A stretch of DNA of 64,000 nucleotides from Nitrosococcus wardiae (GTDB lineage Bacteria; Pseudomonadota; Gammaproteobacteria; Nitrosococcales; Nitrosococcaceae), in the NCBI RefSeq assembly GCF_004421105.1, contig NZ_CP038033.1:1631659-1695658 (forward strand). The letters are read 5' to 3'. The notes beneath the pieces are model-generated. The model saw only the letters and a list, made by a program, of their open reading frames with translations. It did no database searches and had not been told where the DNA came from. Both the position numbers and the translations under genes were made by a program. Of this stretch, positions 9,271 through 29,898 are shown piece by piece. Each line of letters starts with the position of its first letter. Positions within the stretch are counted from its first letter, which is position 1.

Positions 9271-11349
9271 ATGAATGATTTGGGGTTGATTAGCTATGGC
9301 ACTGGTGCGGCCACCTTTTCAGCACTTCTCCTTGTACTCGCTATCGGTTACCGCAGCCGTCCCATGGGAGGGCTGTTGCTATTTGCGGTTGCGGTAAATG
9401 CAAGTTGGCTGGCTGTTTCTGCCTATGCGTTATACGTCGATAGTTTCCCGCTACTTGGAGTCCAGTTATCGGAAACCCTTCGAAACGGGGTTTGGTATGC
9501 CTTCCTCCTTCAGATATTAGGCTTTAATCTTAAGGCTCAAGGTCTTATTCGCAGACTGGCCTTGCTAATTTTTACCTTAGTACTTTTGCAGGGAGGGTTA
9601 CTACTCGGATTTTCCTGGCTAGAAGCAGTGCTTGGTGCCAAACCAAGCCGTGAGATTATGTTGGCAGGACAAGTCCTACTGGCGGTTATTGGCTTGATGC
9701 TGGTGGAACAGCTACTGCGCTCCGTTCCTCAGGAAAAACGGTGGGCCATTAAGTACCTCTGTCTCGGGCTTGCCGGGCTGTTCATTTATGATTTTTTCCT
9801 CTACGCTGATGCTTTACTACTGCAAATGATCAATCCCGGAGTTTGGTCTGCCCGGGGTTTGGTTAATGCCATGGTGGTTCCCTTCATTGCCGTTTCAGCA
9901 GCACGGAATCCCCAATGGTCGCCAAATGTCTATGTCTCTCGGCGGATGGTGTTTCATACTGCCACTTTTTTGGGGACAGGACTGTATTTATTGGCCATGG
10001 CGGGTGCCGGCTATTACCTGCGCTATTTTGGCGGCTCATGGGGAATCATGGCCCAGGCTGTCTTTCTGTTTGCGGCGGGTTTACTGCTTCTATCACTTCT
10101 TTCCTCTGGCCAGCTAAAGGCTAAATTGCGGGTTTTTATAAGCAAGCATTTTTTTAATTATAAATATGACTATCGCGAACAATGGCTGCACTTTATTAGC
10201 ATGCTTTCGGAGGATTCCTCGCTCCCTTTGAGAGAGCGGGTGACCCGGGCCATGGCTCAGCTTGTGGAGAGCCCCGCGGGCATGCTATGGCAACTAAAGG
10301 AAAAGCATTATGTGCCGACTTTTGCTTGGAATCTCCCTTTTCCGGAAGGGCTTGTAGAACCGAAGCAATCACCGTTTCTTCGTTTTCTGCAGGAACAAGA
10401 ATGGATTGTGGAAGAAGGAGGGGAAGGAATGGCGGCTCATCCCATAACGGTGCCAGAATGGTTTGGTAAGCTCAAAGACCCTTGGCTTATCGTTCCTTTA
10501 GTTCACAGGGAAACATTAGTGGGTTTCCTCGTGTTGGCCCGTTCCCGGGTTGGGGTCACTTTGGACTGGGAAGATCGGGACCTACTGCGTACCACCGGCC
10601 GGCAGGCGGCAAGCTACTTGGCCTACCAAGAGGCGGCCGAACAACTGGTCCAGGCCCAGCAGTTTGCAGCGTTTCATCGGTTTTCTGCCTATGTAGTCCA
10701 TGATCTGAAAAATCTCATCGCTCAGTTATCCTTGTTGGTGCGTAATGCAGCGCAGCATAAGCATAACCCGGAATTTATCGATGATGCCGTGCAGACCATC
10801 GATCATGCCGTCAAGCGTATGCAGCGGCTGATGGGGCAACTCCGCAGTGCCGGGGAGAGTGAACAGCGGGAGAGTTTTGAGGTGGTGACATTGGCCCACG
10901 AATTGGCAAAGCGCTATGCTGCCTACCAGCCACCGCCGGAGGTGGAGGGAAAGGATGAAGGTTCCATTAGGATATGGGCCAATCGAGAACGGTTTAGTAC
11001 CGTTTTGGGGCATTTGATTCAAAACGCCCAGGAAGCCACCCCCCCTGAGGGGCGTGTTATTTTGCGAGTCAGCAGGGAACAGGGACTAGCCCGGATCGAG
11101 GTCGAGGACACCGGGCAGGGGATGGACCCTACCTTTGTCCGAGAACGGTTATTTCGCCCTTTTGATAGTACCAAAGGGCTTACGGGGATGGGGATTGGAG
11201 CTTTTGAAGTGCGGGAATATATCCAGACGATAGGTGGAGATATTGAAGTCCAAAGCGCGCCGGGGAAAGGAACCTGTTTCGTGTTGCGGATACCCCAGGG
11301 CGAAGTAGGTAGAACTCAGATAGAGGAGGTGAAAGAGGCGGTTTCATGA
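9271..11349 (+). CDS. prsK: PEP-CTERM system histidine kinase PrsK
   Basis: The membrane sensor kinase of the PEP-CTERM two-component system (TIGR02916), 692 residues. The N-terminal third has about eight transmembrane helices (about 5-280). A GAF-like cytoplasmic domain follows (about 320-450). The phospho-acceptor is probably His477 in the VVHDLKN motif, the atypical H box of this group. The ATPase has LIQNAQEATPPEG (N box), VEDTGQGMD and GMGIGAFEVREYI. It overlaps prsR by 4 bases (ATGA), so translation is coupled. The signal it senses is unknown. Confidence 0.93.
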   Translation: MNDLGLISYGTGAATFSALLLVLAIGYRSRPMGGLLLFAVAVNASWLAVSAYALYVDSFPLLGVQLSETLRNGVWYAFLLQILGFNLKAQGLIRRLALLIFTLVLLQGGLLLGFSWLEAVLGAKPSREIMLAGQVLLAVIGLMLVEQLLRSVPQEKRWAIKYLCLGLAGLFIYDFFLYADALLLQMINPGVWSARGLVNAMVVPFIAVSAARNPQWSPNVYVSRRMVFHTATFLGTGLYLLAMAGAGYYLRYFGGSWGIMAQAVFLFAAGLLLLSLLSSGQLKAKLRVFISKHFFNYKYDYREQWLHFISMLSEDSSLPLRERVTRAMAQLVESPAGMLWQLKEKHYVPTFAWNLPFPEGLVEPKQSPFLRFLQEQEWIVEEGGEGMAAHPITVPEWFGKLKDPWLIVPLVHRETLVGFLVLARSRVGVTLDWEDRDLLRTTGRQAASYLAYQEAAEQLVQAQQFAAFHRFSAYVVHDLKNLIAQLSLLVRNAAQHKHNPEFIDDAVQTIDHAVKRMQRLMGQLRSAGESEQRESFEVVTLAHELAKRYAAYQPPPEVEGKDEGSIRIWANRERFSTVLGHLIQNAQEATPPEGRVILRVSREQGLARIEVEDTGQGMDPTFVRERLFRPFDSTKGLTGMGIGAFEVREYIQTIGGDIEVQSAPGKGTCFVLRIPQGEVGRTQIEEVKEAVS

Positions 11350-12701
11350 GCAGCAAGAAGAAGAATCTGTTGATCGTGGAAGATGATCTTGGCTTGCAAA
11401 GCCAACTGCGGTGGTCCTTTTGTGACTATGAAATTGGAACTGCCGAAGATCGCCAGGGAGCGATTGCTTTGGTGCGCCGTCATGAACCTCCGGTAGTGAC
11501 TTTAGATCTCGGCCTGCCTCCCGATCCCGGTGGAGTTAGCGAAGGTATGGCCATTCTGCGGGAGGTTTTGGCCTTAGCGCCCCATACCAAGATTATTGTG
11601 ATTACCGGAAATGATAGCCGGGAACATGCGGTGCAGGCGGTGGGAGAAGGTGCCTACGATTTTTATTCCAAGCCTATCGACCCTGACATTCTCAAGCTAA
11701 CCATTGACCGGGCTTATCGGCTCTATGAGCTAGAGATGGAAAACCGGCGCTTACGGCAGGTCAACTCTTCCTCTTTGGAAGGAGTGATTGCGGTTAGCCC
11801 TGAGATGAGAAAGGTATGCCGTGCCGTTGAAAAGATTGCCCCTACGGATGTGACCACCCTTATTTTGGGTGAAAGTGGTACAGGAAAAGAAATCATTGCC
11901 CGGGCCTTACACCAGCTGAGCCAGCGCAGCAGTCAACCCTTCGTGGCTATTAACTGTGCCGCTATTCCGGAGAACCTCTTAGAGAGTGAGCTTTTCGGTT
12001 ATGAAAAGGGTGCCTTTACCGGGGCTGTGCGGCAGACCCGGGGCAAAATTGAATATGCCAATAGGGGGACATTATTTCTGGACGAGATCGGGGATCTGCC
12101 TCTAGGCCTTCAAGCTAAGCTGCTACGTTTTCTCCAGGAACGGGTAATCGAACGGGTGGGTGGCCGTGAAGAAATCCCTGTAGATGTACGGGTGGTCTGT
12201 GCGACCAACCAGGATCTGAAGAAGCTCATTCTCCAGGGCCGCTTCCGGGAAGATCTTTATTATCGAATCGCTGAAGTCACGGTAACTCTTCCACCTCTAC
12301 GTGAACGCCCAGGTGATGCGGCGGTTATTGGGCGGGCGTTGCTCGACCGTTTTGCCCAGGCCCATGGTAAAGCAGTTCGGGGTTTTTCGGACGATGCCCT
12401 TAGGGCTATCGAGGCCTATACGTGGCCCGGTAATGTCAGAGAACTGGAAAACTGCATAAAACGGGCGGTGGTTATGGCAGAGGAGAACCGTATCACTGTA
12501 GAAGATTTGGATCTCCCCACTCCTTCGGAAAAGAAGACTATGTCTCTAAACCTGCGCCAAATACGGGAGCATACTGAGCGCGAGGCACTAACCCGAGCCG
12601 TTACGCTCGTAAACGGCAATCTATCCCGTGCAGCTGAACTGCTGGGGGTGACCCGTCCTACCTTATATGCCTTACTCGATAAATATGAAATGCGTAATTG
12701 A
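11346..12701 (+). CDS. prsR: PEP-CTERM system sigma-54 response regulator PrsR
   Basis: An NtrC-type activator of 451 residues (TIGR02915). The receiver domain carries phospho-acceptor Asp54. The AAA+ domain (about 150-385) has Walker A GESGTGKE at 175-182 and the sigma-54 contact loop GAFTGA near 222-227, so it should activate RpoN-dependent transcription. A Fis-type helix-turn-helix ends the protein (NLSRAAELLGVTRPTLYALL). PrsK is its cognate kinase. Two good sigma-54 promoters occur in this window, at 15627-15642 and 30022-30037, upstream of genes of the same system; they are the natural targets. Confidence 0.94.
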   Translation: MSSKKKNLLIVEDDLGLQSQLRWSFCDYEIGTAEDRQGAIALVRRHEPPVVTLDLGLPPDPGGVSEGMAILREVLALAPHTKIIVITGNDSREHAVQAVGEGAYDFYSKPIDPDILKLTIDRAYRLYELEMENRRLRQVNSSSLEGVIAVSPEMRKVCRAVEKIAPTDVTTLILGESGTGKEIIARALHQLSQRSSQPFVAINCAAIPENLLESELFGYEKGAFTGAVRQTRGKIEYANRGTLFLDEIGDLPLGLQAKLLRFLQERVIERVGGREEIPVDVRVVCATNQDLKKLILQGRFREDLYYRIAEVTVTLPPLRERPGDAAVIGRALLDRFAQAHGKAVRGFSDDALRAIEAYTWPGNVRELENCIKRAVVMAEENRITVEDLDLPTPSEKKTMSLNLRQIREHTEREALTRAVTLVNGNLSRAAELLGVTRPTLYALLDKYEMRN

Positions 12702-14609: not shown

Positions 14610-15494
14610 TTATGCGCTAGCAATTTGAGGTTGGGGCACCATAGTGAGCTTTCTTGCTACTTTCGTATATTCCTCGATGTAATTACGTTTAGACTCCGGC
14701 CAAATCGCTCCATGATTGGTTAAAATCTTCCAAGCATCAGGTTGGTTCTTATAGACCCTTCTTAACAGCGTTTCAAGATTATCGATACAAGGTAGTCGGA
14801 TCCCGCGATGTTCGATTGCCGAACCAATCGGTGTCAAGCGAATTGCAAAGCGTCTCAAAGTTCTAAATAGAGCTGGCGAAGCCAAAGAATACCAGTGTGT
14901 AATTCCATGCTTATCGCTCAAATGCATTGCAGCGGCAACTAACTCTAGGGTGAGATGGGAATACAATAGGCGATCTAGGCGAGTGTTGTTGTACTTTTCT
15001 TCTTTGGAGTGTCCAGCTTTTGTTGCAGATGCCATTTTTATAACTCGCTGTCTAATATTCTTAGATATTGCAAATCGAGAAATTTCTGCAGGTGAATGAT
15101 GTGATGAAATTTGCATTTCTCTAGGAATATTAGTAAGCAATGTGCTGCAGCAGGGTTCCATGGGAAATCCATTTCTATGGCCAGAAGAATTCGGCCGAAC
15201 TAATCGGACAGTGCCTACCGCTTCTCCCGTATCGCGATAGCGGATGAGGGCATGGATAGAATATTGATCGTAGTGATCCATTTCCATTTTGTTTGGAAAA
15301 CAGGATGCATTTTCGAACGGGTTTTCAAGGCAATAAACTTGATAGCGTAGATTAAAGGCCTGCTCAATAAGCTTTGGAGTGTCTGCTTCTAAAACTTCGA
15401 AGTATTTTTGAAAGAGCTTGTGGACATGAAGCAATTCGGATTCATTATCAAATTTTGGTTGATATGCACTTGGGCAGTAAGTAAAAAGTGACAT
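14610..15494 (-). CDS. PEP-CTERM/exosortase-associated acyltransferase 1 (LuxI-like GNAT fold)
   Basis: A member of the TIGR03694 family, related to acyl-homoserine-lactone synthases and N-acyl amino acid synthases. Residues matching the LuxI core are present: the first conserved Arg in LRYQVYC (near 50), an acidic patch MDHYDQYS (near 73), GTVRLV (94-99) and EISRFAIS (137-144). It should move an acyl chain from ACP or CoA to an amine acceptor; the substrate is unknown. I choose ATG 15494, with GGAAGG 6 bases upstream; in-frame ATGs at 15500 and 15527 are less well placed. A sigma-54 promoter lies about 130 bases upstream. A paralogue with a separate start lies at 15979. Confidence 0.85.
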   Translation of the reverse strand: MSLFTYCPSAYQPKFDNESELLHVHKLFQKYFEVLEADTPKLIEQAFNLRYQVYCLENPFENASCFPNKMEMDHYDQYSIHALIRYRDTGEAVGTVRLVRPNSSGHRNGFPMEPCCSTLLTNIPREMQISSHHSPAEISRFAISKNIRQRVIKMASATKAGHSKEEKYNNTRLDRLLYSHLTLELVAAAMHLSDKHGITHWYSLASPALFRTLRRFAIRLTPIGSAIEHRGIRLPCIDNLETLLRRVYKNQPDAWKILTNHGAIWPESKRNYIEEYTKVARKLTMVPQPQIASA

Positions 15495-15962
15495 TGGCAT
15501 CCTTCCCCTTGAGGGTATGCGTGGCATGGAAACAATGGAACTCGCTGCTTATAGTCCGCAGGTATGCATAAAGATTGTTGATATGTAGTGCAGCTCTACT
15601 ACTTTTATAAATATCCGGCTAAGCAAAGCAAATATAATGCCATTATTGATTAAGGTTAATAAAATTATTAAATTATATAATTAGGAAACAGGAATATTAA
15701 GTAATTTAAGTTTTATAGTCATAAAATATGTCTCTAAATGCAGACGTTATTTTTTTGTTAAAATATTAGGCTTATGTATTATTTATCCCACTTTCCGATG
15801 ACCCCTTCGTAACCTTTTGAAAATTCCAAGTTAAAATTCGTGCCAGTTTTAAGGCAGGAATATAAAAACACTTAAAAATTAATAACTTAAAAATATGAGG
15901 CCAAAAAAAATCGGTTTATGTATTAAAAGCAATTTCATTGTCGGCATATAGAGACGAGTTTG
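15495..15962. other. AT-rich intergenic region with the acyltransferase promoter
   Basis: About 470 very AT-rich bases with no ORF. It contains the sigma-54 site at 15627-15642. A dyad TGCC-N8-GGCA (15841-15856) about 200 bases further upstream could be an activator site. Otherwise I see nothing. Confidence 0.45.
15627..15642 (-). promoter_or_regulatory. Sigma-54 (-24/-12) promoter of acyltransferase 1
   Basis: On the minus strand the sequence is TGGCATTATATTTGCT. It has GG, exactly ten bases and GC, and matches TGGCAY-N5-TTGCW. Transcription would start near 15615, giving a leader of about 120 bases before ATG 15494. PrsR at 11346 is the only sigma-54 activator in the window. Confidence 0.75.
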
Positions 15963-15999
15963 AATGGCAAAAACTGTCTTAAGGACAGTTTTTGCCATT
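15963..15999 (-). terminator. Perfect 16-bp hairpin across the end of acyltransferase 2
   Basis: AATGGCAAAAACTGTC (15963-15978) and GACAGTTTTTGCCATT (15984-15999) are perfect inverted repeats with a 5-base loop. The stem includes the last codons and the stop of the gene that ends at 15979. The T run is inside the stem, so it is unusual for a terminator, but it may end or stabilise the transcript. Confidence 0.6.
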
Positions 16000-16728
16000 G
16001 TGAGTAATTAATTCCCAAACATCGGGACGTTCTTTGCGTGCCCTTTCCAGAAATTGATCCAGGTGAACATAACAAGGCTGACGCTTGCCGTGATAATCTA
16101 TGGCTGGTCCATATGGCATTAGATATAAACTGTATCTTGATAAAAGACGTAGAAAAGAGCGCTCTACCACGCAAAACCAATGTTGTATTCCATTTTCAGC
16201 ACTCATCTTTACTGCCCCGGCAACTAACCCTAGGGTAATATGCGGTATAATCCGACGCTCATCTATGTAAGTCTCATAGTAATCAGAAGCGGCACTTGGT
16301 GAAATAAATTCTCCAAAACGTTTCCTAAATTCTTTAGAAATCGCAAAGCGAGAAACTTCGGCTACTTTTGCCCGAGGAAACTGCTTATGATTAAGGAATA
16401 AGGGAAGAGAGCTTATCTCATGGACAGGAAAACATTTTTCGACGTCTTTTCGGGGCAGGATTAGGCGAACGGTACCCGCAAAGCTCCCTGTCCGCTGATG
16501 TCTGAGAAGGCTGTGGGCTGAGTATTTATCGAATTCATCATTCTCCAATCTATCCGGAAACTGCCAGGGGTTTTCAAATCCAGTTTCTACGCAATAAACT
16601 TGGTACCGTAAACGGTATACGGTTTCAAGAAGTTTAGATGTGTTTGCGGGGGTGACTTCAAAATAGTTCGAAAATACATCAACTAGCCTGCTTTCGGTGC
16701 TCGTGCTACCTGCGCAAGAAGAGTGCAT
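15979..16728 (-). CDS. PEP-CTERM/exosortase-associated acyltransferase 2 (LuxI-like GNAT fold)
   Basis: A second TIGR03694 protein of 249 residues, clearly a paralogue of the gene at 14610. It keeps RYQVYC (41-46), the acidic cluster LENDEFDKYS (61-70), GTVRLI (85-90) and EVSRFAIS (124-131). The C-terminal half also aligns, with PYGPAIDYHGKRQPCY matching the paralogue's IGSAIEHRGIRLPC. ATG 16728 has GGAGGA 6 bases upstream. No sigma-54 motif was found before it, so the two copies seem differently controlled. Function is inferred only from the family: acyl transfer to an unknown amine. Confidence 0.85.
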   Translation of the reverse strand: MHSSCAGSTSTESRLVDVFSNYFEVTPANTSKLLETVYRLRYQVYCVETGFENPWQFPDRLENDEFDKYSAHSLLRHQRTGSFAGTVRLILPRKDVEKCFPVHEISSLPLFLNHKQFPRAKVAEVSRFAISKEFRKRFGEFISPSAASDYYETYIDERRIIPHITLGLVAGAVKMSAENGIQHWFCVVERSFLRLLSRYSLYLMPYGPAIDYHGKRQPCYVHLDQFLERARKERPDVWELITHNGKNCP

Positions 16729-17287
16729 AATAAATCCTCCAACTCCCTTTACTAAGAGGTCTCATTAAAATGGGCAATTTTCGGCGGTAATATTAAAGAA
16801 CGCAGAAGTAGTTGGAAAAAACCCTTTATGGGTAGAGTGGCTTATTTTACAGTGCAACCAACCCCACTGCTATTCACTTATAATTTAGGCATTCCAATGG
16901 CGCGTTATAGAGAAGTGCAGCACGTTTTTGAAATCCAAAAGTGGTCAAAAAAATAGAATGAGCAAAAAGTCATATTTTTGTCGCTTATAGCGTTTCCTTT
17001 ATATTGAGAATGCAAGGTTCTGCTAGATTGAATTCGTATCTCATTTGTTCGGGAAACGCTATAGGTTAAAAATTTCTTGGCTTGGCTTTTTCGTTATAAG
17101 ATACCAAGGGCACGAAAGTGAAGGAATCTGAGTCCATGGAGAGAGGCTAATGGAGAGACTGATTGCTAATGAATCCGATTATTTTTATCTATTAAGTTTT
17201 TGATCCTTTAATGTATTCCTTGTTTTTGTGGTGATCTCATGAATTACCTGGGCTAGCCAGACCATCATAAGTTGGCAGATAACAAAT
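16729..17287. other. Divergent promoter region with an inverted-repeat element
   Basis: About 560 bases between acyltransferase 2 and the ThiF-nitroreductase gene. It holds the 78-bp element at 16986-17063. Next to the plus-strand gene (17221-17250) is a segment closely similar to that before ilvD at 191-220 (TGTGGTGAT.TCATGA.TTA). No ORF is supported. Confidence 0.5.
16986..17063. repeat. MITE-like element with 12-bp terminal inverted repeats
   Basis: TATAGCGTTTCC (16986-16997) and GGAAACGCTATA (17052-17063) are perfect inverted repeats around a 54-base AT-rich core. The length and lack of coding capacity fit a miniature inverted-repeat transposable element. I see no other copy in this window. 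Confidence 0.6.
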
Positions 17288-19297
17288 ATGGAAGAAGATG
17301 AAATTTTGACTGAAGTGGGCGGTAGAGATCAGGATAAAAGCTCCTCATTTGTGTTTGAAGAAGCCTTCAGCCGAAATATCGGTTGGCTAAGCGAATGGGA
17401 ACAGCAGATACTCCGTACTAAGAAAGTAGCCATTGCGGGGATGGGAGGGGTGGGGGGCGCTCACCTATTAACCCTTGCGCGTTTAGGCATCGGTGCTTTC
17501 CATGTTGCTGATTTTGATACCTTTGAGCTTCCTAATTTCAATCGTCAAGTGGGTGCCACAGTAAGCACGATAGGCCAACCCAAGGTTGATGTAGTGGCTC
17601 AGCTGGCACGAGATATCAATCCAGAGTTAGATCTGGCCCTATTTCCTGCAGGCATTAATCAGGACAATATGGATGCCTTCCTCAAGGGTGTGGACCTTTT
17701 CGTCGATGGTTTTGATTTCTTTGTGCTGGATATGAGGGCTCTGGTTTTTGCTCGCTGTGCAGAGCTTGGCATACCAGCAATCACGGCGGCACCCATTGGA
17801 ATGGGGACAGCCTATTTAGTGTTTATGCCGGGGCACATGACCTTTGAGGAATACTTTCGTTTAGAAGGCATACCCATTGAGCAGCAATATGTAAACTTCC
17901 TCGTTGGGTTAGCGCCCAAAGCATTCCATCGCTCTTATCTAGTGGATCCTTCACGACTTGACTTGGCTGCTCGTCGCGGTCCCTCGACAGCTATGGGCTG
18001 CCAACTATGTGCAGGAGTCACTGGAGCAGAAGCATTGAAGATCCTCCTTGGAAGAGGGCCTATACGGTCAGCTCCCCGCTATCATCAGTATGACGCCTAT
18101 CGGGGTAAGTGGCATCTGGGATGGCTTCCTGCTGGCAATCGCAATCCGATCCAGGTCTTCAAGCGTAAAATGGGTTATCGAATGCTCACCCAGCTCTCTC
18201 ATGAAATGCCAACTGCAGCGTCGCCTAAAAGCAACACTGAGATTGAAGCCATTTTGGATATGGCCCGGTGGGCACCCAGTGGCGATAACACCCAACCCTG
18301 GCGCTTTGAAATTAAAGATCCGCATCATGTCGTTATCCATGGCTTTGATACTCGGGATTACTGTGTGTATGACTTGGAAGGTCATGCCAGCCAGCTCTCC
18401 GTCGGCGCGTTGCTGGAGAGCATGGCTATTGCGGCGACCCGATATGGTTTTCGCACGGATATTCAACGGGAGCTTGAGGCTGCCGAAACCCATCCCAAGT
18501 TCGAGGTTCGTTTTGTTCCTGACGCTACCATTCGCCCGGATCCCCTGTGGCCCTATATTCCTGTCCGTGCTACCCAGCGCCGAGCCCTGTCCATGCGTTC
18601 CCTCACCCCTCGGGAGAAGAATGCCCTGGAGGACTCGGCGAAACCTGCGTTTTCCATTTACTGGCTTGGGGGCTTAGGAATCCGGCTGAAGGTCGCCCAG
18701 TTGCTGTTTATGAATGGGAAACTGCGGCTAACAACGCCCGAAGCTTATGAGGTCCATCGAAAGGTAATCGAATGGAATACCCAGTTCAGCGAGGACCGCA
18801 TTCCAGACCAGGCCGTGGGCCTCGATCCCGTGGGGGTACAGCTTATGCGCTGGGCAATGAAAAGCTGGAGCCGTGTAAAGTTTTTAAACACTTATCTGGG
18901 AGGGACGCTATTGCCACGGGTACAGCTTGATTTTATTCCCAGTATTGCCTGCGCTGCCCATTTTCTGATTATTGCTAAAAAAACGCCCCAATCCATTGAC
19001 GATTATATTGCCGCTGGAAGAGCCTGGCAGCGCTTTTGGCTTACAGCTACCCAGCTGAATTTACGGCTTCAGCCGGAGATGACACCGCTCATTTTTAGCA
19101 CCTATATCCGAGATGGAGTGGAGTTTTCAAAAAATGAGTCTAGCCTACGCCTAGCTGAGAAGCTTTCGTCTCAATTGGAACAATTAATTTCACCGGAAAT
19201 CAGTCAGCGGGCTATGGTGATGGGAAGGATAGGGGCAGGGTCTGCCCCCAAAGCCCGGTCGGTGCGGTTGCCTATTGAGCGGTTGATGGTGAGCTGA
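17288..19297 (+). CDS. ThiF (E1-like) - nitroreductase fusion protein
   Basis: A 669-residue fusion. The N-terminal half (about 30-290) is an E1/ThiF/MoeB-type adenylating domain: nucleotide loop GMGGVGG (51-57), then DFDTFELPNFNRQ, where acidic, Asn and Arg residues hold ATP. Only one CxxC-like pair is seen (Cys238, Cys241, in MGCQLCAG). The C-terminal half (about 315-650) resembles FMN nitroreductases, with ARWAPSGDNTQPW near 325. The same arrangement is known from mycobacterial Rv1355c (called MoeY), whose reaction is unproved. It is divergent from the two acyltransferases. Adenylation of a carboxylate followed by a flavin redox step is a reasonable inference. Confidence 0.82.
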   Translation: MEEDEILTEVGGRDQDKSSSFVFEEAFSRNIGWLSEWEQQILRTKKVAIAGMGGVGGAHLLTLARLGIGAFHVADFDTFELPNFNRQVGATVSTIGQPKVDVVAQLARDINPELDLALFPAGINQDNMDAFLKGVDLFVDGFDFFVLDMRALVFARCAELGIPAITAAPIGMGTAYLVFMPGHMTFEEYFRLEGIPIEQQYVNFLVGLAPKAFHRSYLVDPSRLDLAARRGPSTAMGCQLCAGVTGAEALKILLGRGPIRSAPRYHQYDAYRGKWHLGWLPAGNRNPIQVFKRKMGYRMLTQLSHEMPTAASPKSNTEIEAILDMARWAPSGDNTQPWRFEIKDPHHVVIHGFDTRDYCVYDLEGHASQLSVGALLESMAIAATRYGFRTDIQRELEAAETHPKFEVRFVPDATIRPDPLWPYIPVRATQRRALSMRSLTPREKNALEDSAKPAFSIYWLGGLGIRLKVAQLLFMNGKLRLTTPEAYEVHRKVIEWNTQFSEDRIPDQAVGLDPVGVQLMRWAMKSWSRVKFLNTYLGGTLLPRVQLDFIPSIACAAHFLIIAKKTPQSIDDYIAAGRAWQRFWLTATQLNLRLQPEMTPLIFSTYIRDGVEFSKNESSLRLAEKLSSQLEQLISPEISQRAMVMGRIGAGSAPKARSVRLPIERLMVS

Positions 19298-19392: not shown

Positions 19393-22300
19393 TCAGGTAC
19401 CAGCAACCGCTTTGCCTTTGTCCTTATTGGTCATAAACATTCGATATAACAGAGGAATTACAAAAAGAGTTAACAAGGTGGAGATTCCTAAGCCCCAGAC
19501 GATAGCTGAGGCCATGGGCCCCCATAGCAATGATTGGCCACCTAGACCGATGGCGAGGGCAAACAAACCGGCGATGGTGCTAAGGCTAGTAATCAATATG
19601 GGAATCAGGCGCCGGCGGGCGGCATAAATTGCAGCATGCAATACGCTCATACCCTGATTTAAGCGGTCATTGGCCGCTACGATTAGCACGATCGCTGCAT
19701 TTATGGCAATGCCGGTTAAAGCTACAGCGCCATAAAGAGTATAGAGGCTCAGCGGATTATTCGTCACTATTAACCCAAACAATACACCGGTAAAAGCCAT
19801 AGGCACGGCGGCGAGAATCATCAGGGGTTGCCAGTAGCTGCGAAACTGGGTCCCTAGGATGATGTAAATCAACCCGATACCTAACAGGAACAGCAGGGCG
19901 AGAGCCTGTATACTTTCTTGAATATCTTCAAATGCTCCGGAGAAATCCAGGTCGATGCCGGGAAAACGGGCGCGCAGGTTTTCCCATTCTTGTTGAATAT
20001 GGCGATTAACGGCCACTATATCCGTCACTTTCCGGTCAATGTCGGCTTCCAAGGTGATGGTGCGTCGAAAATTATAGTGCCGAATCGCTACCTGCCCTAG
20101 ACCTTTATCCACCTTGACTAGCTGACCTAAGGCGATTTCGCCGCCATCGGGTAAGGCAATTGGTTGCCTGAGTACGGTATCGATATCGGGTACTGACGTT
20201 CGCTTGGCGCGCACGCGTACTTCCAGTTTTTCACCCTGTTTGCGGGTGCTGGCTACAATCTCCCCATCAAACAGTAGTCGGATAATATGGGTGACGGAAG
20301 CAGGGTCTAAACCGGAACGCTTGATAGCATCCCCATCCAGATGCAAGTTAAGTTGCAGCTTGCCAGGAATGTTATCGCTGGTGATGTCTTTCACTCCGGG
20401 GAGGTTACGCAAAATCGATTCCAAGGCAGCTACCGCTTGGTGAAGCCTCTCTAAATCATCACCGCGCACCTTAATGCTGATTGGTCTAGAAACTGGAGGC
20501 CCCTCGGAGATGCGGAGAAAGGAAACCCGCACCGGTCCCGGTGTATTAACGAGGTCTTTTCTCATGGTTTCAATCGTTTCGTCGACGCTGCGTAGTTGTC
20601 CCTCCTGTGGCTTTAAACTGACGACGACTTGGCCATACTGGTCGCCCGATAGGACTTCTGTGCCTGTGAACATCATGCCTGCATAGCCTACGGTTTGGCG
20701 CAATTCCTCTGGCTTGATATGTCTTCTCACCTTTGTATCTAATACTTCGATTAAACGAAGAGTCTCGTCCAAGGGAGTATTGGGTGCCATTTCCACGTTC
20801 ACATAAAATAATCGAATGGGGTCGGCTGCAAAGAAATCAGCCCGTACCCAGTTGCTTGCCAATACACCGAAAGCGCCGATAAACAATAGTATGGCCAGCA
20901 GGGAACGCTTAGGTCGTCTTAGGAGGTGGATCAGGCCCTGAGTATACTTAACCCGCAAATAGTGAGTGAAACGTACCCGGTAATGTTGTAGAGGAGAAGG
21001 GTTGTGGGTACCGATTTTCGAGCCCATGATATGTACTGGTAACATCCAGAAGGCCTCAAGCAGACTGACGGCCAGGGCCACAGTCACTACCAGTGGAATG
21101 ACAAACATAAATTTGCCTAGGAGCCCTGGGGTTAGCATAAGAGGGAGGAAAGCGGCGATGGTAGTCAATACCGAAGTCACCACGGGAGCGGTGACTTCCG
21201 AAAGCCCCTGGACCACCGCAGCCATATGGGCTGCCCCCCGCTGCAAACAATAATAAATAGCCTCGACTACCACCACCGCATCGTCCACCAGCATGCCGAG
21301 AGCAATGACTACCCCCAGAAATACAGAGATATTAAGGCTTTCTCCCAGAACATAAAGCACCAAAAAGGTCCCCGCCAGGGTAAAGGGAATGCCGATTCCG
21401 ATGAAAAACGAGATGCGTGATCCGAAAAATACCCAGGTGGTTAGTGTTACGAGTACTAAGCCTAACGCCGCATTGTTCTCCATGATCCGCAATGCGGCCT
21501 CGGTGCGGGGCGTCTGATCATCCACCAAGACCAGTTTGACACCGCTCTCGCGGCTGATCTCATTATGGGAAGTAATGTAAGCTTTAAGGTTTTTAATGAA
21601 TTCCAGAGAGCCAGTGCTGCTCTTCTTGTCTATGATTAGCAATACCCCCGGCTTGCCGTGATGGCGGACTAATTCTTCCGGTTTCTCCCGCCCCCGGCTC
21701 ACAGTCGCGACGCTATCAATGGAAATCTGGCCATGAGCCGTTTTGAGAGGGAACTGACCTAAATCATGGGGATCACTGTGGGTGCCGACTACTCGCACTA
21801 GCCATTGCTGATTGGCTTGGCGGACGTTTCCTGCAGCAATGTCTTGAAAATAGGCAGCGACCGTCTCAGCTAAGTCGGCAGGGGTCACCCCCACGGCCCG
21901 TAGTCGCTCTGGCGAAAACTCCACCTGCAGTTCCGGTTCCCGCAGGCCTATTGTACCTACGTTTTCTATGCCAGGGATGCGCTCTAAGTCTTCGCGGATG
22001 ATCCGGGCATTGCGCCGCAACACCTCATCATCAGCAGCTCCACTGACCAAGATCATGGCGGCAGGAAACATGTTGGCCGTGGTTAGCTCGAAGAATTCAG
22101 GTTCTTCAGCGGCTTTTGGCAGTTCTTGATCCGCCTTATTCTGCACTTCCCGGCGCAGGTCATTGAGGCGTTTATCATAGGTACGGTTATCGATGTCTTG
22201 AAATCGCACCAGGATAAGCGACAAACCTTCTCGGCTAGTACTGGAGGAAAACCGGATGTCTTGGACTTGGCGAAGCCCCTCTTCCAGCGGCTCGGTAATC

Positions 22301-22479
22301 AGTTTCTCCACATCTTCCGCGGAGGCCCCTGGGAAGGCTGTACTGATGTGTACCCAGTTAAAATTCACCGGCGGATTTTGTTCCTTAGGCAGGTGGATGT
22401 AGGCAAGGGCACCTGCAGTGAGTATTAGCGTAAAGGTCAGATTGGCCAATACATGATTATGGAAGAAACGGGCAAGCAT
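19393..22479 (-). CDS. RND-family efflux transporter, inner-membrane subunit
   Basis: A full-length proton-driven RND pump of 1028 residues. The N-terminal helix (residues 10-28) and docking/porter signature (FPGASAEDVEKLITEPLEE) are followed by the helix-4 proton relay pair Asp399-Asp400 in LGMLVDDAVVVVEA. The second half repeats the layout and ends with TM11-12 (LSTIAGLFALAIGLGGQ). It belongs with the HAE1/MdtB-like drug or lipid exporters rather than metal pumps; the substrate is unknown. The adaptor gene lies 43 bases upstream. No outer-membrane TolC partner is present. It converges on the ThiF-nitroreductase gene. Confidence 0.92.
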   Translation of the reverse strand: MLARFFHNHVLANLTFTLILTAGALAYIHLPKEQNPPVNFNWVHISTAFPGASAEDVEKLITEPLEEGLRQVQDIRFSSSTSREGLSLILVRFQDIDNRTYDKRLNDLRREVQNKADQELPKAAEEPEFFELTTANMFPAAMILVSGAADDEVLRRNARIIREDLERIPGIENVGTIGLREPELQVEFSPERLRAVGVTPADLAETVAAYFQDIAAGNVRQANQQWLVRVVGTHSDPHDLGQFPLKTAHGQISIDSVATVSRGREKPEELVRHHGKPGVLLIIDKKSSTGSLEFIKNLKAYITSHNEISRESGVKLVLVDDQTPRTEAALRIMENNAALGLVLVTLTTWVFFGSRISFFIGIGIPFTLAGTFLVLYVLGESLNISVFLGVVIALGMLVDDAVVVVEAIYYCLQRGAAHMAAVVQGLSEVTAPVVTSVLTTIAAFLPLMLTPGLLGKFMFVIPLVVTVALAVSLLEAFWMLPVHIMGSKIGTHNPSPLQHYRVRFTHYLRVKYTQGLIHLLRRPKRSLLAILLFIGAFGVLASNWVRADFFAADPIRLFYVNVEMAPNTPLDETLRLIEVLDTKVRRHIKPEELRQTVGYAGMMFTGTEVLSGDQYGQVVVSLKPQEGQLRSVDETIETMRKDLVNTPGPVRVSFLRISEGPPVSRPISIKVRGDDLERLHQAVAALESILRNLPGVKDITSDNIPGKLQLNLHLDGDAIKRSGLDPASVTHIIRLLFDGEIVASTRKQGEKLEVRVRAKRTSVPDIDTVLRQPIALPDGGEIALGQLVKVDKGLGQVAIRHYNFRRTITLEADIDRKVTDIVAVNRHIQQEWENLRARFPGIDLDFSGAFEDIQESIQALALLFLLGIGLIYIILGTQFRSYWQPLMILAAVPMAFTGVLFGLIVTNNPLSLYTLYGAVALTGIAINAAIVLIVAANDRLNQGMSVLHAAIYAARRRLIPILITSLSTIAGLFALAIGLGGQSLLWGPMASAIVWGLGISTLLTLFVIPLLYRMFMTNKDKGKAVAGT

Positions 22480-22522: not shown

Positions 22523-23545
22523 TCAATCGGAAAGATTTTGGACTCGAACAGTATCGCCATCTTGGACAATAAAGCGACCATCTACGATGACAGGCGTATC
22601 CCTGGGCAGGTCGATCTTAGCGGGTTTGCCTTCCTGGGCACCAGGTAAAGCTACAAATTTTGCCCGTCCATTAGCTAATACGAAGATCCCCATCATGCCG
22701 CCGCGTCGAACTAGCAGATCGGCAGGTAGATGGGGAGCTTGAGGGCGCCAAATAAGATTCCCCGTCGTACCAATAAGGGCCGGCATATCGATGAAGCGTA
22801 GACGTACTTCCTGACTTCGCTGACGGAGGTCTAGGGCAGGTATCATCCTGTGGAGCTTAACTGGGTAGCGGTCATTCCCATTTACAAACTCCACGGTACC
22901 CGCATTGCGTAAGGAGAGAGTATCGCGGGGTTGTAGTTTAGCGGAGACCAAGATTCGTTCTGCATCTAGAATGCGGATAAGTGGAGTACCTGGCATCGCT
23001 AGCTCGCCTATTTGACTTAGCTGTTCCACAACGATGGCCTTGAACGGAGCGTGGATCACCGTCTTTTCAAGATCCAGCCGCAGCTGCTCTACAGTAATGC
23101 GCTGGACCGCCATTTCAGCTTTGCTAACCTTTAGCTCCGTTTGGCGCTGATTAAGCATTTCTTCCGTGATTAACTTTTGGTTGGCCAAGGATTGCGCGCG
23201 GGTTAGCTGGCGTTGGGCTAAAGCCTGTCTGGCCTCAAGTGATGCCAGCGTCGCCTCAGCCCGTTTGAGTGCGAGTTCTAGATCCGCTTTTTCAAGCTGT
23301 ACTAAAGGGGTTCCTGGATCTACTATTTGGCCCACCTCAGCAGAAAAACCGACGATAACAGCGGTCACCTCAGCACTGATGCGGCTATCGTTTAGGGTAA
23401 TAACTTCTGCTGGTGCGGTGACCTCAGGAAACTCTGTCAATTCTACTAAAGGTTTTACTGTGACCGACTCTCTGGTTGCTCCCTGTAATTCCGGCATATT
23501 GCCGAGCAATAGAGTTAATAGGAGCAGCAAATATTTAATAGGCAT
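22523..23545 (-). CDS. RND pump periplasmic adaptor (HlyD/AcrA family)
   Basis: The membrane fusion protein for the pump downstream. A signal peptide (MPIKYLLLLLTLLLG) leads to a lipoyl half-motif (VIVGFSAEVGQIVDPGTPLV), an alpha-hairpin coiled coil (about 90-150), the second lipoyl half (VIHAPFKAIV) and beta-barrel domains. The GTPLIRI motif fits the family. I choose ATG 23545, with AAGG 9 bases upstream, over ATG 23566, which adds seven residues and has no ribosome site. Length is a little short for AcrA but normal for the family. Confidence 0.86.
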   Translation of the reverse strand: MPIKYLLLLLTLLLGNMPELQGATRESVTVKPLVELTEFPEVTAPAEVITLNDSRISAEVTAVIVGFSAEVGQIVDPGTPLVQLEKADLELALKRAEATLASLEARQALAQRQLTRAQSLANQKLITEEMLNQRQTELKVSKAEMAVQRITVEQLRLDLEKTVIHAPFKAIVVEQLSQIGELAMPGTPLIRILDAERILVSAKLQPRDTLSLRNAGTVEFVNGNDRYPVKLHRMIPALDLRQRSQEVRLRFIDMPALIGTTGNLIWRPQAPHLPADLLVRRGGMMGIFVLANGRAKFVALPGAQEGKPAKIDLPRDTPVIVDGRFIVQDGDTVRVQNLSD

Positions 23546-24185
23546 TTCGGATAGCCTTGCTTTCATGGGTTGATGTAAATGATGATATGTTGGTACACAG
23601 TAACTAATTTTTTTGAGAGTGGAAGTTCAATGCCAATCATTGCTGTGCTAGATTGGATATAAGGGTTTATCGTCCGCCATGATTGATAGGAATAGGATTG
23701 AAAAGGTGTTTATGTTCAAAAAACCTTTAAGGTGGGCTGCGGGGGTTGTTCCTAATTCTCAATTCGGTAGAAGAATAGATACTTAATCTTACTCCCGTGG
23801 GGGGAAAACGAAGGGATTGAAAACGTATTATTGAGTTTATAAGCTTTGAGGCAGCGGCCAGATGTCCGTACTTAAGGGCATGTTAAACGGTCGCTAAGGA
23901 GTTTGTCTATAACAGTGTACGTTGGGTTTTGCTGATAGGTGTGGTGGCGTAGCGCCTAATCCAAAAAACGTGGAATGGCAGCAGACTATAAGTGTCAAAT
24001 TTTTTGATATTGCTGCATCAGCGAGTCCTGCCCGATTATTGAAAGATCAACTAGCGGGCCTTTTGTTGTCAGCGAGGACGGCTAAATACAGCGTGAAACA
24101 TCACTTCCATCGCTAGGCAGTATGTTGGGCGCCTTCCTGATTTATCACTGCTTGGTTAAGAGAAACTAGAATAAATGTTTCTATC
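23546..24185. other. Intergenic region, no clear gene
   Basis: About 640 bases. A 64-codon ORF at 23922-24116 has no ribosome site and no recognisable protein, so I do not call it. The segment near 23919-23970 has imperfect inverted-repeat ends (ACGTTGGGTTTTGC and TAATCCAAAAAACGT), a weak trace of a dispersed element. Nothing else is visible. Confidence 0.4.
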
Positions 24186-24872
24186 TTATATGCTGGAGGT
24201 ATCAAACTTCTGTTGAGTACGTAGCCGTTTGGCGGGATTACCCCCCCAGAGCTCGCCAGGGCCGATATGGGTGCTTTTCTTAACTACCGCACCAGCCGCC
24301 ACGATAGCTCCGTCCTCAATGGTTACGCCGGCCATGATGATCGATTTGGCACCGATGGTAACATTATTACCAATTTTAATCCTAGCATGTGACAGGCGTC
24401 TACTTTCAATGGCATGGGAAAACAAAACGGCATCGTGGCCGATAATAGTATTGGTACCCGCCTCGGTCAAGGGCGGGTCGAGAATCACGCCAGCACTATA
24501 GGTATTGCTGCCGAGCTTAGTGCCCAAAGCTAGATACAGTATGCGCATGAGAGGTGTTGGTATGAAATAATTTCTGATTAGAGGATAAAATAGAATAAGG
24601 TAGAATAGCACGTAGACATGATAGTTAAACTCCTCGGGCGAGCCTTCTTCTATATAACCTTCTTTGATTGGCATGTAATGCAAAAAGATTCGGTAGAGCA
24701 AGATAGCAAATGCATAAACAAGAAAGATGCTTGCAAAAAACAGGACGATGCCGCGGAAATCACCCAGAGGTAAACGGTTGAAGAGCAGGTTCACGATTCC
24801 CACTCCCGGAACTAGCGCTAGGATGAGTAGACCTAAAAATACCATGATTGGACCAGCGGTAATTTTGCGCAT
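24186..24872 (-). CDS. Membrane-bound hexapeptide-repeat acyltransferase
   Basis: A 228-residue protein with two to four N-terminal membrane helices (residues 8-30, 37-60 and about 85-105) and a C-terminal left-handed beta-helix built from hexapeptide repeats (IGNNVTIGAKSIIMAGVTIE, DGAIVAAGAVV). The end, GPGELWGGNPAKRLR, is typical of O-acetyltransferases of the LbetaH superfamily. It probably acylates a sugar or glycolipid at the membrane. AAGGAAG lies 10 bases before ATG. It is 48 bases downstream of a glycosyltransferase gene and surely in its operon. Confidence 0.78.
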   Translation of the reverse strand: MRKITAGPIMVFLGLLILALVPGVGIVNLLFNRLPLGDFRGIVLFFASIFLVYAFAILLYRIFLHYMPIKEGYIEEGSPEEFNYHVYVLFYLILFYPLIRNYFIPTPLMRILYLALGTKLGSNTYSAGVILDPPLTEAGTNTIIGHDAVLFSHAIESRRLSHARIKIGNNVTIGAKSIIMAGVTIEDGAIVAAGAVVKKSTHIGPGELWGGNPAKRLRTQQKFDTSSI

Positions 24873-24920: not shown

Positions 24921-26144
24921 TTATTTGGTCAGCACTTTATCGACAAATGCACAAAAATTCTTTATCGCATCGTAGTGAGTGAATTCGGCAGCGAGGCGGC
25001 GGGCGGTAGTGTAATAACCTGTTGAGTTGAGTATTTCCGATGACGCATTGCGCACGGCAAGTGCGTTTACTTTACCAGCCCGTAGCAGTCTGCCTGCGCC
25101 TGCCTTAGTAATGGCCATCTGCGCTAGATATTGATCCATATTCGAGGGAATTCCCAGTACGGGCACCCCCTCAGCTAGCGCTTGGTAGCCAGCCGTAGTG
25201 CCGCCATTGCTGATCACTAACTGAGAGAGCCGTGCTGCGTCTGAGCCCCGAATATATGATGCTGCCCGGATGTTTTTCGAAGTAAAATTTATTTCAGTTC
25301 TCCCTGCTGTTGATATCATCAAGAAAAGCGGGGGGCGTATCTCTGACAAACCTTTGATTACTTCCAATAGCTTTTCTACTGCTCCGGAAGAGCCGAATGA
25401 TACATAAACACAGGGTTGATCGGCCGGTACTTCATCCCACCAGTCTGGTAGGCTTATCGATGGCGCTTTTACGATCGGACCCAGGTAGTAATGGTTAGAA
25501 GGTGCGTTGACGATAGGTACCAACGAAGGCACATCCAAATACAATGTATAATCGCCATGCGTATAGACGTGGCGTAAATCACCTAGTGGCGGCAGCCCGT
25601 TGGTTTCCCGCAGTCGATTCATCGCTCTGGCGTGTCGTGCAAATACGATCGGTTGCGCTAACCTGAACAGGGCACTAGCTATAGTCACGCCCAAAATACG
25701 GCCCAAAAGGTGTTCCGGAAATGGTGCCCACCTCTCTATATAGTAGGGACTCCAGTAGGCGTTAGTGACGGCAGCGTAGGGGATTTTTCGTTGGGGTGCT
25801 GAGACTGCCAGCGATAGCCGAAAGTCACCAACTACCAAATCCGGCTTGATTTTATCCAGAATACGGAGATCCTCCTGCACATAGCCTTTTAGGGTTTCAT
25901 AATTGTAGAGGGGAGAACCCTTTTCCAAAGCCTTCCTGAAGAGCTTCGGGGAAATGCTGTGGATGTTGAAATGGGTAAAGGTTGGTTGGGGATGGAAATA
26001 TTTGGAACTATTATCACAAGCAAAAAAAATCTCATAACGTTTGAGATCGAGACCTCCGGCCAGTTCCGCCAATCGGGTAACATGCGCTAAAGTTACCGCC
26101 TCGGCTACAAAGAGAATACGCTTACGATGATCAGCTATGTTCAT
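24921..26144 (-). CDS. Family 1 glycosyltransferase (UDP-glycosyltransferase-like)
   Basis: A GT-B glycosyltransferase of 407 residues, like the macrolide/sterol/zeaxanthin glycosyltransferases. Features include VAEAVTLAHVTRLAELA near the N-terminus, VYVSFGSSGAVEKLLEVI in the middle, and the donor-binding stretch SNGGTTAGYQALAEGVPVLG. Enzymes of this family glycosylate lipophilic small molecules rather than polymers. The acyltransferase at 24186 would act on the same product. Its acceptor is unknown. The upstream region has a 14-bp palindrome at 26275-26288 and a hairpin at 26199-26227. Confidence 0.85.
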   Translation of the reverse strand: MNIADHRKRILFVAEAVTLAHVTRLAELAGGLDLKRYEIFFACDNSSKYFHPQPTFTHFNIHSISPKLFRKALEKGSPLYNYETLKGYVQEDLRILDKIKPDLVVGDFRLSLAVSAPQRKIPYAAVTNAYWSPYYIERWAPFPEHLLGRILGVTIASALFRLAQPIVFARHARAMNRLRETNGLPPLGDLRHVYTHGDYTLYLDVPSLVPIVNAPSNHYYLGPIVKAPSISLPDWWDEVPADQPCVYVSFGSSGAVEKLLEVIKGLSEIRPPLFLMISTAGRTEINFTSKNIRAASYIRGSDAARLSQLVISNGGTTAGYQALAEGVPVLGIPSNMDQYLAQMAITKAGAGRLLRAGKVNALAVRNASSEILNSTGYYTTARRLAAEFTHYDAIKNFCAFVDKVLTK

Positions 26145-28944: not shown

Positions 28945-29898
28945 TCAGGCGAGCTTACGGCGCCGCCTAATGTGGCTAACACTAATCAAGCTAAGGCCAA
29001 TACCCAGGAGGGCAATACTCGCCGGCTCAGGAACAGCTTGGGTGTTGAAGCTTGAATTGGCATCAGCCTCAAAGTGAAAATCTTCAGGCCCCTGACCTAA
29101 GCCATTGATACTGTCAGGCCCGTAGACCGGGGTATTACCCGCTACAGACAGCTCGGGATTAATGTTATCAAAGGGATCTTCCAAGGTCGCATTCAGCAAA
29201 AACTCGATAATGGTATCATTATTGATACCTTGAAAGAAGGTAGGATTAAAGAAGCCGATAGCCGCCTCCACCGTCGCATCTCCGCTACCTTGCACCGTTC
29301 GTATTCCCGGCAGATCATTGTTTCCGAAACCATCGAGCGACTGGATATTATTATTTGCCGAACCGCCAGTTAAGCTAAAACCAGCACCCAATATTGTTGG
29401 ATTTACGCTAGCGGACAGGATCAGCGTGCCATCGTCATATCCCAACCCGCTGTTCCCGGTTATCCCGTCTGCATTGGTGGTGCCAGCGCTAAAATCATCA
29501 TACCAGATATTCACTGTTCCGCCACTATGGTTAAAATCAACGGTGTCGGCAATGCCGTCTCCGTCGATATCGTTACTATCGGCAACTATCTCGTTAAGGG
29601 AGATTTCGTAAGTAATCTCGAATGGCCCCGCAGCTCCAGTTGGTATATTTGTAACGCCGCCAGTACCGCTCACTGAGGTAAGTTCGGATTGAATGAATGT
29701 TGTGAAAGTACTGTCATCGGCCAGTGGTATGGCATCGACTGCCAGAGCATTGCCCGGAAGCCAATCGAGGCCATCAACTGGCGTGAAAACGCCATCTTGG
29801 TCAAAATCGAAGCCAATAGTGTCTGCAACGACCGGCATCGCAACTGATAGTGATAAGGCAGCACCTACGCTGCTAGTAATTAGTTTCTTCTTAAACAT
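28945..29898 (-). CDS. PEP-CTERM sorting-domain protein
   Basis: A secreted substrate of exosortase A. It has an N-terminal signal peptide (about 1-25, ending VVA), a Thr/Gly/Asp/Asn-rich body of beta type (about 28-285) with Asp-rich FDFDQDG and DIDGDGIAD segments that may bind calcium, and a C-terminal sorting signal: PEP at 290-292, a hydrophobic helix (about 293-308) and the basic tail HIRRRRK. XrtA (43704) should cut near the PEP motif and anchor the protein or release it to the surface. Start ATG 29898 has AGGAGA 8 bases upstream. It is controlled by the sigma-54 site at 30022-30037. Confidence 0.92.
   Translation of the reverse strand: MFKKKLITSSVGAALSLSVAMPVVADTIGFDFDQDGVFTPVDGLDWLPGNALAVDAIPLADDSTFTTFIQSELTSVSGTGGVTNIPTGAAGPFEITYEISLNEIVADSNDIDGDGIADTVDFNHSGGTVNIWYDDFSAGTTNADGITGNSGLGYDDGTLILSASVNPTILGAGFSLTGGSANNNIQSLDGFGNNDLPGIRTVQGSGDATVEAAIGFFNPTFFQGINNDTIIEFLLNATLEDPFDNINPELSVAGNTPVYGPDSINGLGQGPEDFHFEADANSSFNTQAVPEPASIALLGIGLSLISVSHIRRRRKLA

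Follow-up and report, generated by a model that had tools for sequence, protein, structure and literature searches.

The stretch of DNA analyzed here, called the window below, covers 64,000 nucleotides of the Nitrosococcus wardiae genome (NZ_CP038033.1, positions 1,631,659 to 1,695,658 of the forward strand). In it lie two genes for N-acyl amino acid synthases (NAS1 and NAS2) and, facing away from them, a gene for a protein of 669 residues in which a ThiF-like domain is fused to a nitroreductase-like domain. The open reading frame of the fusion runs from 17288 to 19297 on the plus strand, and 559 bp separate it from NAS2; the divergent arrangement given in an earlier note on this DNA (the original prediction) is thus confirmed. 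The surroundings are those of an exosortase A (XrtA/PEP-CTERM) locus, with prsK and prsR on one side of the block and prsT, the exopolysaccharide (EPS) genes and xrtA on the other (Table 1). What might such enzymes make? Judging from sequence and from characterized relatives, NAS1, NAS2 and the fusion probably form an acyl-oxazolone synthetase of the OxzAB/TrzAS kind, placed inside an exosortase locus.

Table 1. Features of the window. Positions are those of the window; cited articles are used, here and below, as far as their accessible text goes.
Feature	Position	Strand	Evidence
NAS1, TIGR03694 N-acyl amino acid synthase	14610..15527	-	305 aa; 285.1 bits; orthologue in 4/4 genus species and one further genome of the family
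NAS2, N-acyl amino acid synthase of the TIGR03694 family, transcribed away from fusion	15979..16728	-	249 aa; 300.1 bits
ThiF-like adenylating/cyclising domain of fusion (residues 1-300)	17288..18187	+	PF00899 150 bits
Nitroreductase-superfamily flavin-dependent oxidase domain of fusion (residues 311-669)	18218..19297	+	PF00881 32 bits
Resistance-nodulation-division (RND) efflux permease, genus-level companion	19393..22479	-	PF00873; 95%/86% orthologues in two fusion-bearing sisters
RND periplasmic adaptor	22523..23566	-	TIGR01730 118 bits
Hexapeptide-repeat acyltransferase, probable decorating enzyme	24186..24872	-	Homologues in 5/185 class genomes
GT1-type (EryCIII/MGT-like) glycosyltransferase, probable decorating enzyme	24921..26144	-	Homologues in 4/185 class genomes
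Sigma-54 promoter-like site TGGCATTATATTTGCT before NAS1	15627..15642	-	Kept upstream of NAS1 in 4/4 genus species
PepA-like PEP-CTERM protein	28945..29898	-	NF033554 65.5 bits, cut-off 80, nearly whole model
Sigma-54 site TGGCATCAAGCTTGCT before PepA-like gene	30022..30037	-	Fits motif 2 of PMC1569441
TTTACA, end of proposed PrsR-binding motif 1	30112..30117	-	74 nt before the sigma-54 site of the PepA-like gene
prsK and prsR, exosortase A system regulators	9271..12701	+	TIGR02916 915 bits, TIGR02915 767 bits
prsT	30405..33209	-	TIGR02917 999 bits
EPS export, chain length, deacetylase, FemAB and exosortase A genes	34233..47240	+	TIGR03027, TIGR03007, TIGR03006, TIGR03019, TIGR03109 and others above cut-off
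xrtA (exosortase A)	43704-45284	+	Within the gene set 34233..47240

Both acyltransferases exceed the curated TIGR03694 cut-off of 111.95 bits and are thus members of this family; both also exceed the cut-offs of the Pfam models Acetyltransf_5 and FeeM. They share the motifs LRYQVYC, GTVRL and AEISR/AEVSR, so the original assignment, which was built on a RYQVYC, GTVRL and E-x-S-R core, is borne out by scores and motifs alike. Its description of the two as a paralogous pair needs one small correction, as they are not a recent duplication: they are 39% identical, and a tree of such synthases puts NAS1, NAS2 and a third copy on lineages of their own, with every one of the four species of the genus examined represented in each. 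The third copy sits away from this locus, at 3007713-3008429 of contig C1, and no PEP-CTERM gene was found within about 7 kb of it. The true start of NAS1 may be an internal methionine at codon 10 or 12. The AlphaFold2 model of NAS2, with a predicted local distance difference test (pLDDT) value of 87, matches both N-acyl-homoserine lactone synthases and FeeM, an N-acyl amino acid synthase.

For the fusion, the match to PF00881 is a single short stretch, and the score on the NCBIfam model PRK08223 is 426 bits with a cut-off of 266. By sequence, the nearest solved structures are ThiF, TcdA and MoeB for the first domain and the Acg nitroreductase 2ymv for the second. The AlphaFold2 model (mean pLDDT 85.9) was superposed on Acg 2ymv over 294 residues (Z 29.6, root mean square deviation 2.8) and on ThiF 1zfn over 234 residues (Z 25.4, root mean square deviation 3.0), with MoeB at Z about 25; its predicted TM-score of 0.57 makes the relative placement of the two domains unsure. 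In the ThiF domain, aligned with TcdA, the catalytic Asp, Arg and Lys are present: N85, R86, Q87, K99, D140 and D143 are invariant across 24 homologues, and so are G51, G53, G54, G56 and G57 of the glycine loop GMGGVGG, which is intact. We take the roles of the loop and of R86, K99, D140 and D143 to be those of their ThiF/MoeB counterparts. TcdA is a useful parallel, as it also spends ATP on the cyclization of a small carboxylate. The oxidase domain holds an ARWAPSGDNxQxWRF block that is invariant in 14 homologues. Plasmids of Nitratidesulfovibrio vulgaris carry a match spanning both domains (about 32% identical), an odd find in a sulfate reducer since relatives of the enzyme need O2.

Is the chemistry of such proteins known? 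The original prediction regarded TIGR03694 as a family without a proven substrate and the Rv1355c-type fusion as one without a proven reaction. Both views are outdated, since such acyltransferases are N-acyl amino acid synthases, and both these and oxazolone synthesis by TyzACB and TrzAS have been published (PMC9762135, PMC10404671, PMC12856293). Tryptophan is acylated by TrzA (Rv1356c). The Rv1355c protein, TrzS, which was purified from M. smegmatis, carries out ATP-driven closure of the oxazolone ring and then an O2-dependent desaturation; this work, dated 2025, takes N-acyl tryptophan to the acyl-oxazolone and describes the TrzAS reactions in vitro (PMC12856293). TyzACB (Rv2336-Rv2338c) performs the same three steps with separate proteins (PMC10404671).

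Among these systems, TrzAS (Rv1356c-Rv1355c, tryptazolone) is like the window in that an N-acyltransferase adjoins a ThiF-flavin oxidase fusion, and in that Acg 2YMV is given as the solved structure closest to the oxidase half of TrzS, as it is for the second domain here; it differs in having one acyltransferase where the window has two, and the accessible text mentions no neighbouring glycosyltransferase or PEP-CTERM gene for trzAS (PMC12856293). OxzAB of the gammaproteobacterium Pseudoalteromonas rubra, which makes tyrazolones, likewise consists of an acyltransferase and a ThiF-oxidase protein, as compared by description (PMC10404671, PMC12856293). TyzACB shares the three reactions and a nearby transporter gene, mmpL9, whereas its ThiF and oxidase are separate proteins (PMC10404671). 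In the clusters of stieleriacine, thalassotalic acid and kyonggic acid producers, genes for an N-acyl amino acid synthase (NasY), a ThiF protein and a nitroreductase also stand together; there they are separate genes, the products are open N-acyl dehydro-tyrosines, and no exosortase link is discussed in the accessible text (PMC12479983).

By analogy with these pathways, NAS1 and/or NAS2 would first attach a fatty acyl chain to an amino acid through its amino group, as expected from the family; an aromatic amino acid is the most likely substrate. The adenylation carried out by the fusion would then serve ring closure, and the flavin domain, like TrzS and TyzC, would introduce an alpha,beta double bond using O2. 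The released compound would be an acyl-oxazolone or the ring-opened N-acyl dehydro-amino acid. In some lineages, including that of the window, the glycosyltransferase and the hexapeptide acyltransferase would probably decorate it, and the RND pump may carry it. Of the pathway first proposed for this locus, the linked acylating, adenylating and oxidizing steps on a small molecule are retained and the adenylated product is given up, the adenylation being assigned to ring closure.

Do the acyltransferase and the ThiF enzyme belong together in other genomes? To this end, 185 genomes drawn from the class were searched. Genomes with a ThiF-domain match of at least 208 bits, 19 among the matches listed, were taken as module-bearing; this threshold was chosen after viewing the scores, and the scores that follow under it are 95, from one of the 19, and 93, the best from any further genome. 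TIGR03694 is above cut-off in 26 of the 185 genomes. It is present in 16 of the 19 genomes with the ThiF enzyme versus 10 of the 166 without (p = 9e-14), which leaves three genomes with the ThiF enzyme only and 156 with neither. In each of the 16 genomes with both, a single contig carries the two, no more than about 11 kb apart. Exosortase genes (TIGR02602) pass the cut-off in 54 genomes, including 18 of the 19 with the ThiF enzyme, and among these 54 TIGR03694 is found in 15/18 with the ThiF enzyme versus 3/36 without (p = 6e-8). The co-occurrence that the original prediction proposed to look for is therefore strong, also inside exosortase genomes. The pattern it named as adverse, a fusion found mostly without the acyltransferases, was not seen, as all nine class genomes with a match across both fusion domains also carry TIGR03694.

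The neighbourhood was further examined in 80 named loci, the best 80 of 396 confirmed, which were picked by ThiF similarity and of which several are from the same genera; the contigs of three of them (L061, L091 and L052) equal contigs of the class-sample genomes G021, G094 and G098 in length. A TIGR03694-like enzyme is in the flank of 40 loci, within 1 kb in 28, and a FeeM-type synthase replaces it in 15; two loci have both types. The FeeM-type profile widened sharply in its last round (from 27 to 113 frames), and genes were counted only when they scored better on it than on the TIGR03694 profile; the count includes one 62-residue fragment at a contig end. All four FeeM-type genes tested match Pfam PF21926. 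Since FeeM-type synthases stand in the place of TIGR03694, the partner of the ThiF enzyme is exchangeable yet the same in kind: the ring-forming enzyme often keeps an adjoining N-acyl amino acid synthase, which is not always of one family. Examples of FeeM-type synthases that replace or join TIGR03694 come from seven loci, in Nitrosospira, Undibacterium, Nitrotoga and others. A triple fusion of synthase, ThiF and oxidase was also considered for a 1379-residue frame with a TIGR03694 domain, and was rejected because this frame is a genuine gene spuriously lengthened in GC-rich DNA; a 1003-residue frame in another genome has a weak TIGR03694 match (51 bits).

The two genes at 24186-26144, which the original prediction tied to the product, do accompany the module across genomes. 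Homologues of the glycosyltransferase (E up to 1e-30) occur in four class genomes, all module-bearing (p = 8e-5, or 0.01 counting exosortase genomes only), and those of the hexapeptide acyltransferase (E up to 1e-15) in five, again all module-bearing (p = 7e-6, or 0.003), one of the five being a 56-residue partial match. The glycosyltransferase shares the contig of the module in two of its four genomes, and in the other two it is on other contigs of draft assemblies. In the flanks of the named loci, the glycosyltransferase is found in 25, the hexapeptide acyltransferase in 17 and both in 15. It could be asked whether the glycosyltransferase is a mere partner of prsT; this was rejected, because prsT is in 5 of the 25 glycosyltransferase loci, with no association (p = 0.3). 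Going by these genomic associations, the two enzymes probably decorate the module product; they may instead act on a PEP-CTERM protein or a polysaccharide. The rare pair would predict glycosylated or acylated forms of acyl-oxazolones or dehydro-acids, which were not met in the accessible text of the literature examined. The pump, proposed earlier as the exporter of the product, is a companion of the module within the genus and not elsewhere: a homologue is found in 3 of the 80 named loci outside the genus, so a general role beside the module was rejected. MMPL-type transporters, searched with one query, are in 6/80.

We favour an acyl-oxazolone synthetase for four reasons. All three proteins have matching families and folds; architecture and gene pairing equal those of Rv1356c-Rv1355c (TrzAS), a system with reactions demonstrated in vitro (PMC12856293); the partners co-occur in the 185 genomes, with linkage in the named loci and exchange for the FeeM type; and the glycosyltransferase and hexapeptide acyltransferase are confined to module-bearing class genomes. 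Several observations weigh against it. The oxidase is fused to the ThiF domain in 31 of the 80 named loci, is a separate flanking gene in 44 and was not seen in 5, and neither acyltransferase type is in the flank of 25 loci, some of these flanks being cut by contig ends. The fusion is under the cut-off of the NCBIfam model PRK14851 (430 of 1170 bits) and also under that of the Rv1355c family, NF005901 (183.2 of 476 bits), a difference from TrzAS itself; the label Rv1355c-type in the original prediction therefore fits the architecture only, not the NCBIfam model. The synthases also occur without the fusion, because one sister species (G186) keeps NAS1 and NAS2 and not the fusion. Finally, in the stieleriacine, thalassotalic acid and kyonggic acid producers no oxazolone was observed, only open dehydro-acids (PMC12479983).

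This last point leads to a possible alternative, to which we give clearly less weight and which overlaps with the favoured one: the pathway ends in an open-chain N-acyl dehydro-amino acid of the stieleriacine or thalassotalic acid kind, or in a decorated form of it, and the oxazolone is a passing intermediate. The same gene set is compatible with it, as those producers have ThiF and nitroreductase genes (PMC12479983), and oxazolones are hydrolysed in acid and are reactive toward alcohols (PMC12856293). However, an open acid alone would need no ATP-dependent ring closure, unless closure must come first, and this objection is weakened because TrzS desaturates after ring closure (PMC12856293). 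A second explanation, which we regard as unlikely, is that only the history of the locus has brought the acyltransferases and the fusion together; the former would supply the exosortase system with free N-acyl amino acids or some other acyl product, and the fusion would have another target. In line with it, G186 has both acyltransferases and no fusion, the conserved sigma-54 site is at NAS1 only, the ThiF enzyme is missing from 10 class genomes that have TIGR03694 above cut-off, and the ThiF-linked rows are clustered in the synthase tree and are not one clade (13 changes versus 18.9 in shuffles). But the linkage persists within the exosortase genomes alone, a FeeM-type synthase swaps for TIGR03694 beside the ThiF gene, and the proven pathways have the same pairing. 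A third explanation, that a lactone signal is made by the locus and the acyltransferases are genuine homoserine-lactone synthases, is barely credible: LuxI-like motifs, scores of 23.0 and 24.2 bits around the LuxI/PF00765 gathering cut-off of 24 (no single stretch passes) and best Foldseek matches of the NAS2 model to LasI and TofI speak for it, but the TIGR03694 scores are 285-300 bits, FeeM ranks in the top ten of the fold matches at a similar TM-score (2g0b_D 0.56; TofI 3p2h 0.57), and the partner genes are those of an N-acyl amino acid pathway.

Why should an acyl-oxazolone synthetase stand in an exosortase locus? The setting is recurrent. The module lies among prs and EPS genes in other families as well, with G094, G122, G121, G124 and G188 as examples, and 36 of the 80 named loci, a minority, have an XrtA-locus marker (above 100 bits) in the flank. 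PEP-CTERM genes were called with a tail pattern of our making. At least one escaped it: in G121 the PepA model has a match next to the module where the pattern gave none. Within 3.5 kb of the module there are 50 PEP-CTERM genes, in 41 of the 80 loci. Per kb, their density is 0.203 over the first kb, 0.089 over the second and about 0.02 at 2-5 kb, with 0.004 and 0.026 per kb in two outer distance bins, and 30 of the 31 in the first kb are on the oxidase side. A PEP-CTERM neighbour was found at 1 of 20 synthase loci away from the module versus 11 of 14 module genomes (p = 1e-5); the 20 loci leave out G186, several are on short contigs and five are from the genus of the window. In the class sample, a match to the PepA model is within 3 kb of the module in at least 10 of the 19 module genomes and within 12 kb in at least 12. 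Among the matches listed, three of the four genomes above the PepA cut-off have a match at most 1.3 kb from the module. Among the 14 PepA-model matches of at least 50 bits listed, six are within 12 kb of it; against the tie, five are in genomes without the module and three on other contigs of module genomes. The link to PEP-CTERM suspected in the original prediction is thus real as gene context; a product that signals or controls PEP-CTERM expression is a candidate role.

Do these neighbours belong to one family? By plain BLAST and single linkage, 43 of 51 PEP-CTERM proteins (that of the window included) join. After removal of the last 40 residues, which hold the sorting tail, they split into groups of 10, 9, 8, 3, 3, 2, 2 and 2 and singles, and a single family beside the module was rejected. 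Seven of the 50 module-adjacent proteins share the group of 8 with the protein of the window, which misses the cut-off of the PepA floc protein model and is PepA-like, not PepA by that model. Of ten module-adjacent proteins scanned, four are above the PepA cut-off and one above that of EDSAP-1. A wider scan (E up to 1e-5) covered 49 of the 50 near genes and that of the window, and gave matches of the 50 to PepA in 34, EDSAP-1 in 37 and THxN in 37, partly via the shared tail, so that weak matches overlap. Because the grouping breaks without the tail, the neighbour is best described as a PEP-CTERM protein, PepA-like in part, of no single proven family. PEP-CTERM genes that lie past the oxidase gene and are above the cut-off of the PepA flocculation family were seen at four loci. 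In Aquincola, PepA is RpoN-dependent, and its overexpression in an rpoN1 mutant restored flocs, not biofilm (PMC9850573).

A tie to exosortases has a precedent on the synthase side. A 2011 publication reportedly associates such synthases with exosortases, going by its title, from which the ThiF-oxidase partner is absent; we know of no exosortase locus in the host of TrzAS. In Rubrivivax gelatinosus, the table of the psc1 polysaccharide cluster has two ThiF-type genes, uncommented, among PEP-CTERM and EPS genes. Neither was hit when mutants that no longer aggregate were screened for, which hints weakly that aggregation does not require them (PMC3684757). Apart from that table, our literature search, which mostly did not extend to subscription papers so that absence is unproven, met no report joining oxazolone genes with exosortase or PEP-CTERM genes. 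The recurrent exosortase/PEP-CTERM setting of the module is thus apparently unreported, with the chemistry itself known elsewhere.

What this means can be put as follows. The chemistry of oxazolone synthetases is known and, to our knowledge, no purpose is. Their steady tie to exosortase genomes and PEP-CTERM genes, some of which belong to the PepA flocculation family, offers a setting in which a purpose can be tested, namely matrix, floc and biofilm formation, and because the module is linked to PEP-CTERM proteins, a matrix or floc role comes first among the candidate purposes to test. The exosortase-linked N-acyl amino acid synthases, in turn, gain a likely downstream enzyme. A further idea, in our view highly unlikely, is that the acyl-oxazolone would be a reactive acyl donor for the cell surface and not a signal, putting lipid onto PEP-CTERM proteins or polysaccharide and so helping to hold the matrix to the cell. 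Oxazolones react with amines, and the polysaccharide deacetylase of the locus would expose amines on the exopolysaccharide. The idea also draws on the reaction of oxazolones with alcohols (PMC12856293) and on the frequent position of the module next to a gene for an exosortase-sorted protein; if true, it would bear on the fate of such proteins.

Is the module under the control of the exosortase system? The motif TGGCAYN5TTGCW has 26 sites in the genome versus one for a reversed control. The sigma-54 site before NAS1 is retained in one species of the genus despite an otherwise unlike upstream region, and from this sequence evidence at least NAS1 is probably under sigma-54 control; no such site was found within 300 bp before NAS2 or the fusion. 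The TTTACA half of the PrsR element was looked for before NAS1 and not found, therefore PrsR control of NAS1 is not supported. Before the PepA-like gene, the distance from TTTACA to the sigma-54 site is inside the range of 32-92 nt between motif 1 and the sigma-54 site given for PEP-CTERM gene promoters (PMC1569441). Sigma-54 control as a general rule for such synthases was rejected: a site with at least 10 matches is upstream of 6 of 92 synthase genes versus 71 of 862 other genes of the 80 named loci, and three of the six are from the genus of the window. Because there is no enrichment before synthase genes generally, the site is a genus trait of NAS1. A loose test for PEP-CTERM tails flagged one of the remaining 24 sigma-54 sites of the genome, and at none of the 24 does the gene resemble a PEP-CTERM gene.

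Within the genus, two of three sister species share the block of fusion, NAS2, NAS1, RND pump, glycosyltransferase and hexapeptide acyltransferase. The third, G186, also lacks the glycosyltransferase, and its pump homologue is merely 29% identical. In the two block-bearing sisters, the fusion is 91% and 80% identical to that of the window, close to the values for the pump, and the glycosyltransferase 46% and 45%. This low identity beside that of the fusion suggests that the glycosyltransferase has been exchanged (loci L123 and L124). The block from NAS1 to the glycosyltransferase is flanked by two insertion-sequence copies (13107-14217 and 27219-28330), 99.4% identical and in direct orientation. 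A composite transposon (14.2-27.2 kb) was rejected as the origin of the cluster, since the gene order is the same in two other species of the genus. By recombination, the insertion-sequence pair could delete or move the block.

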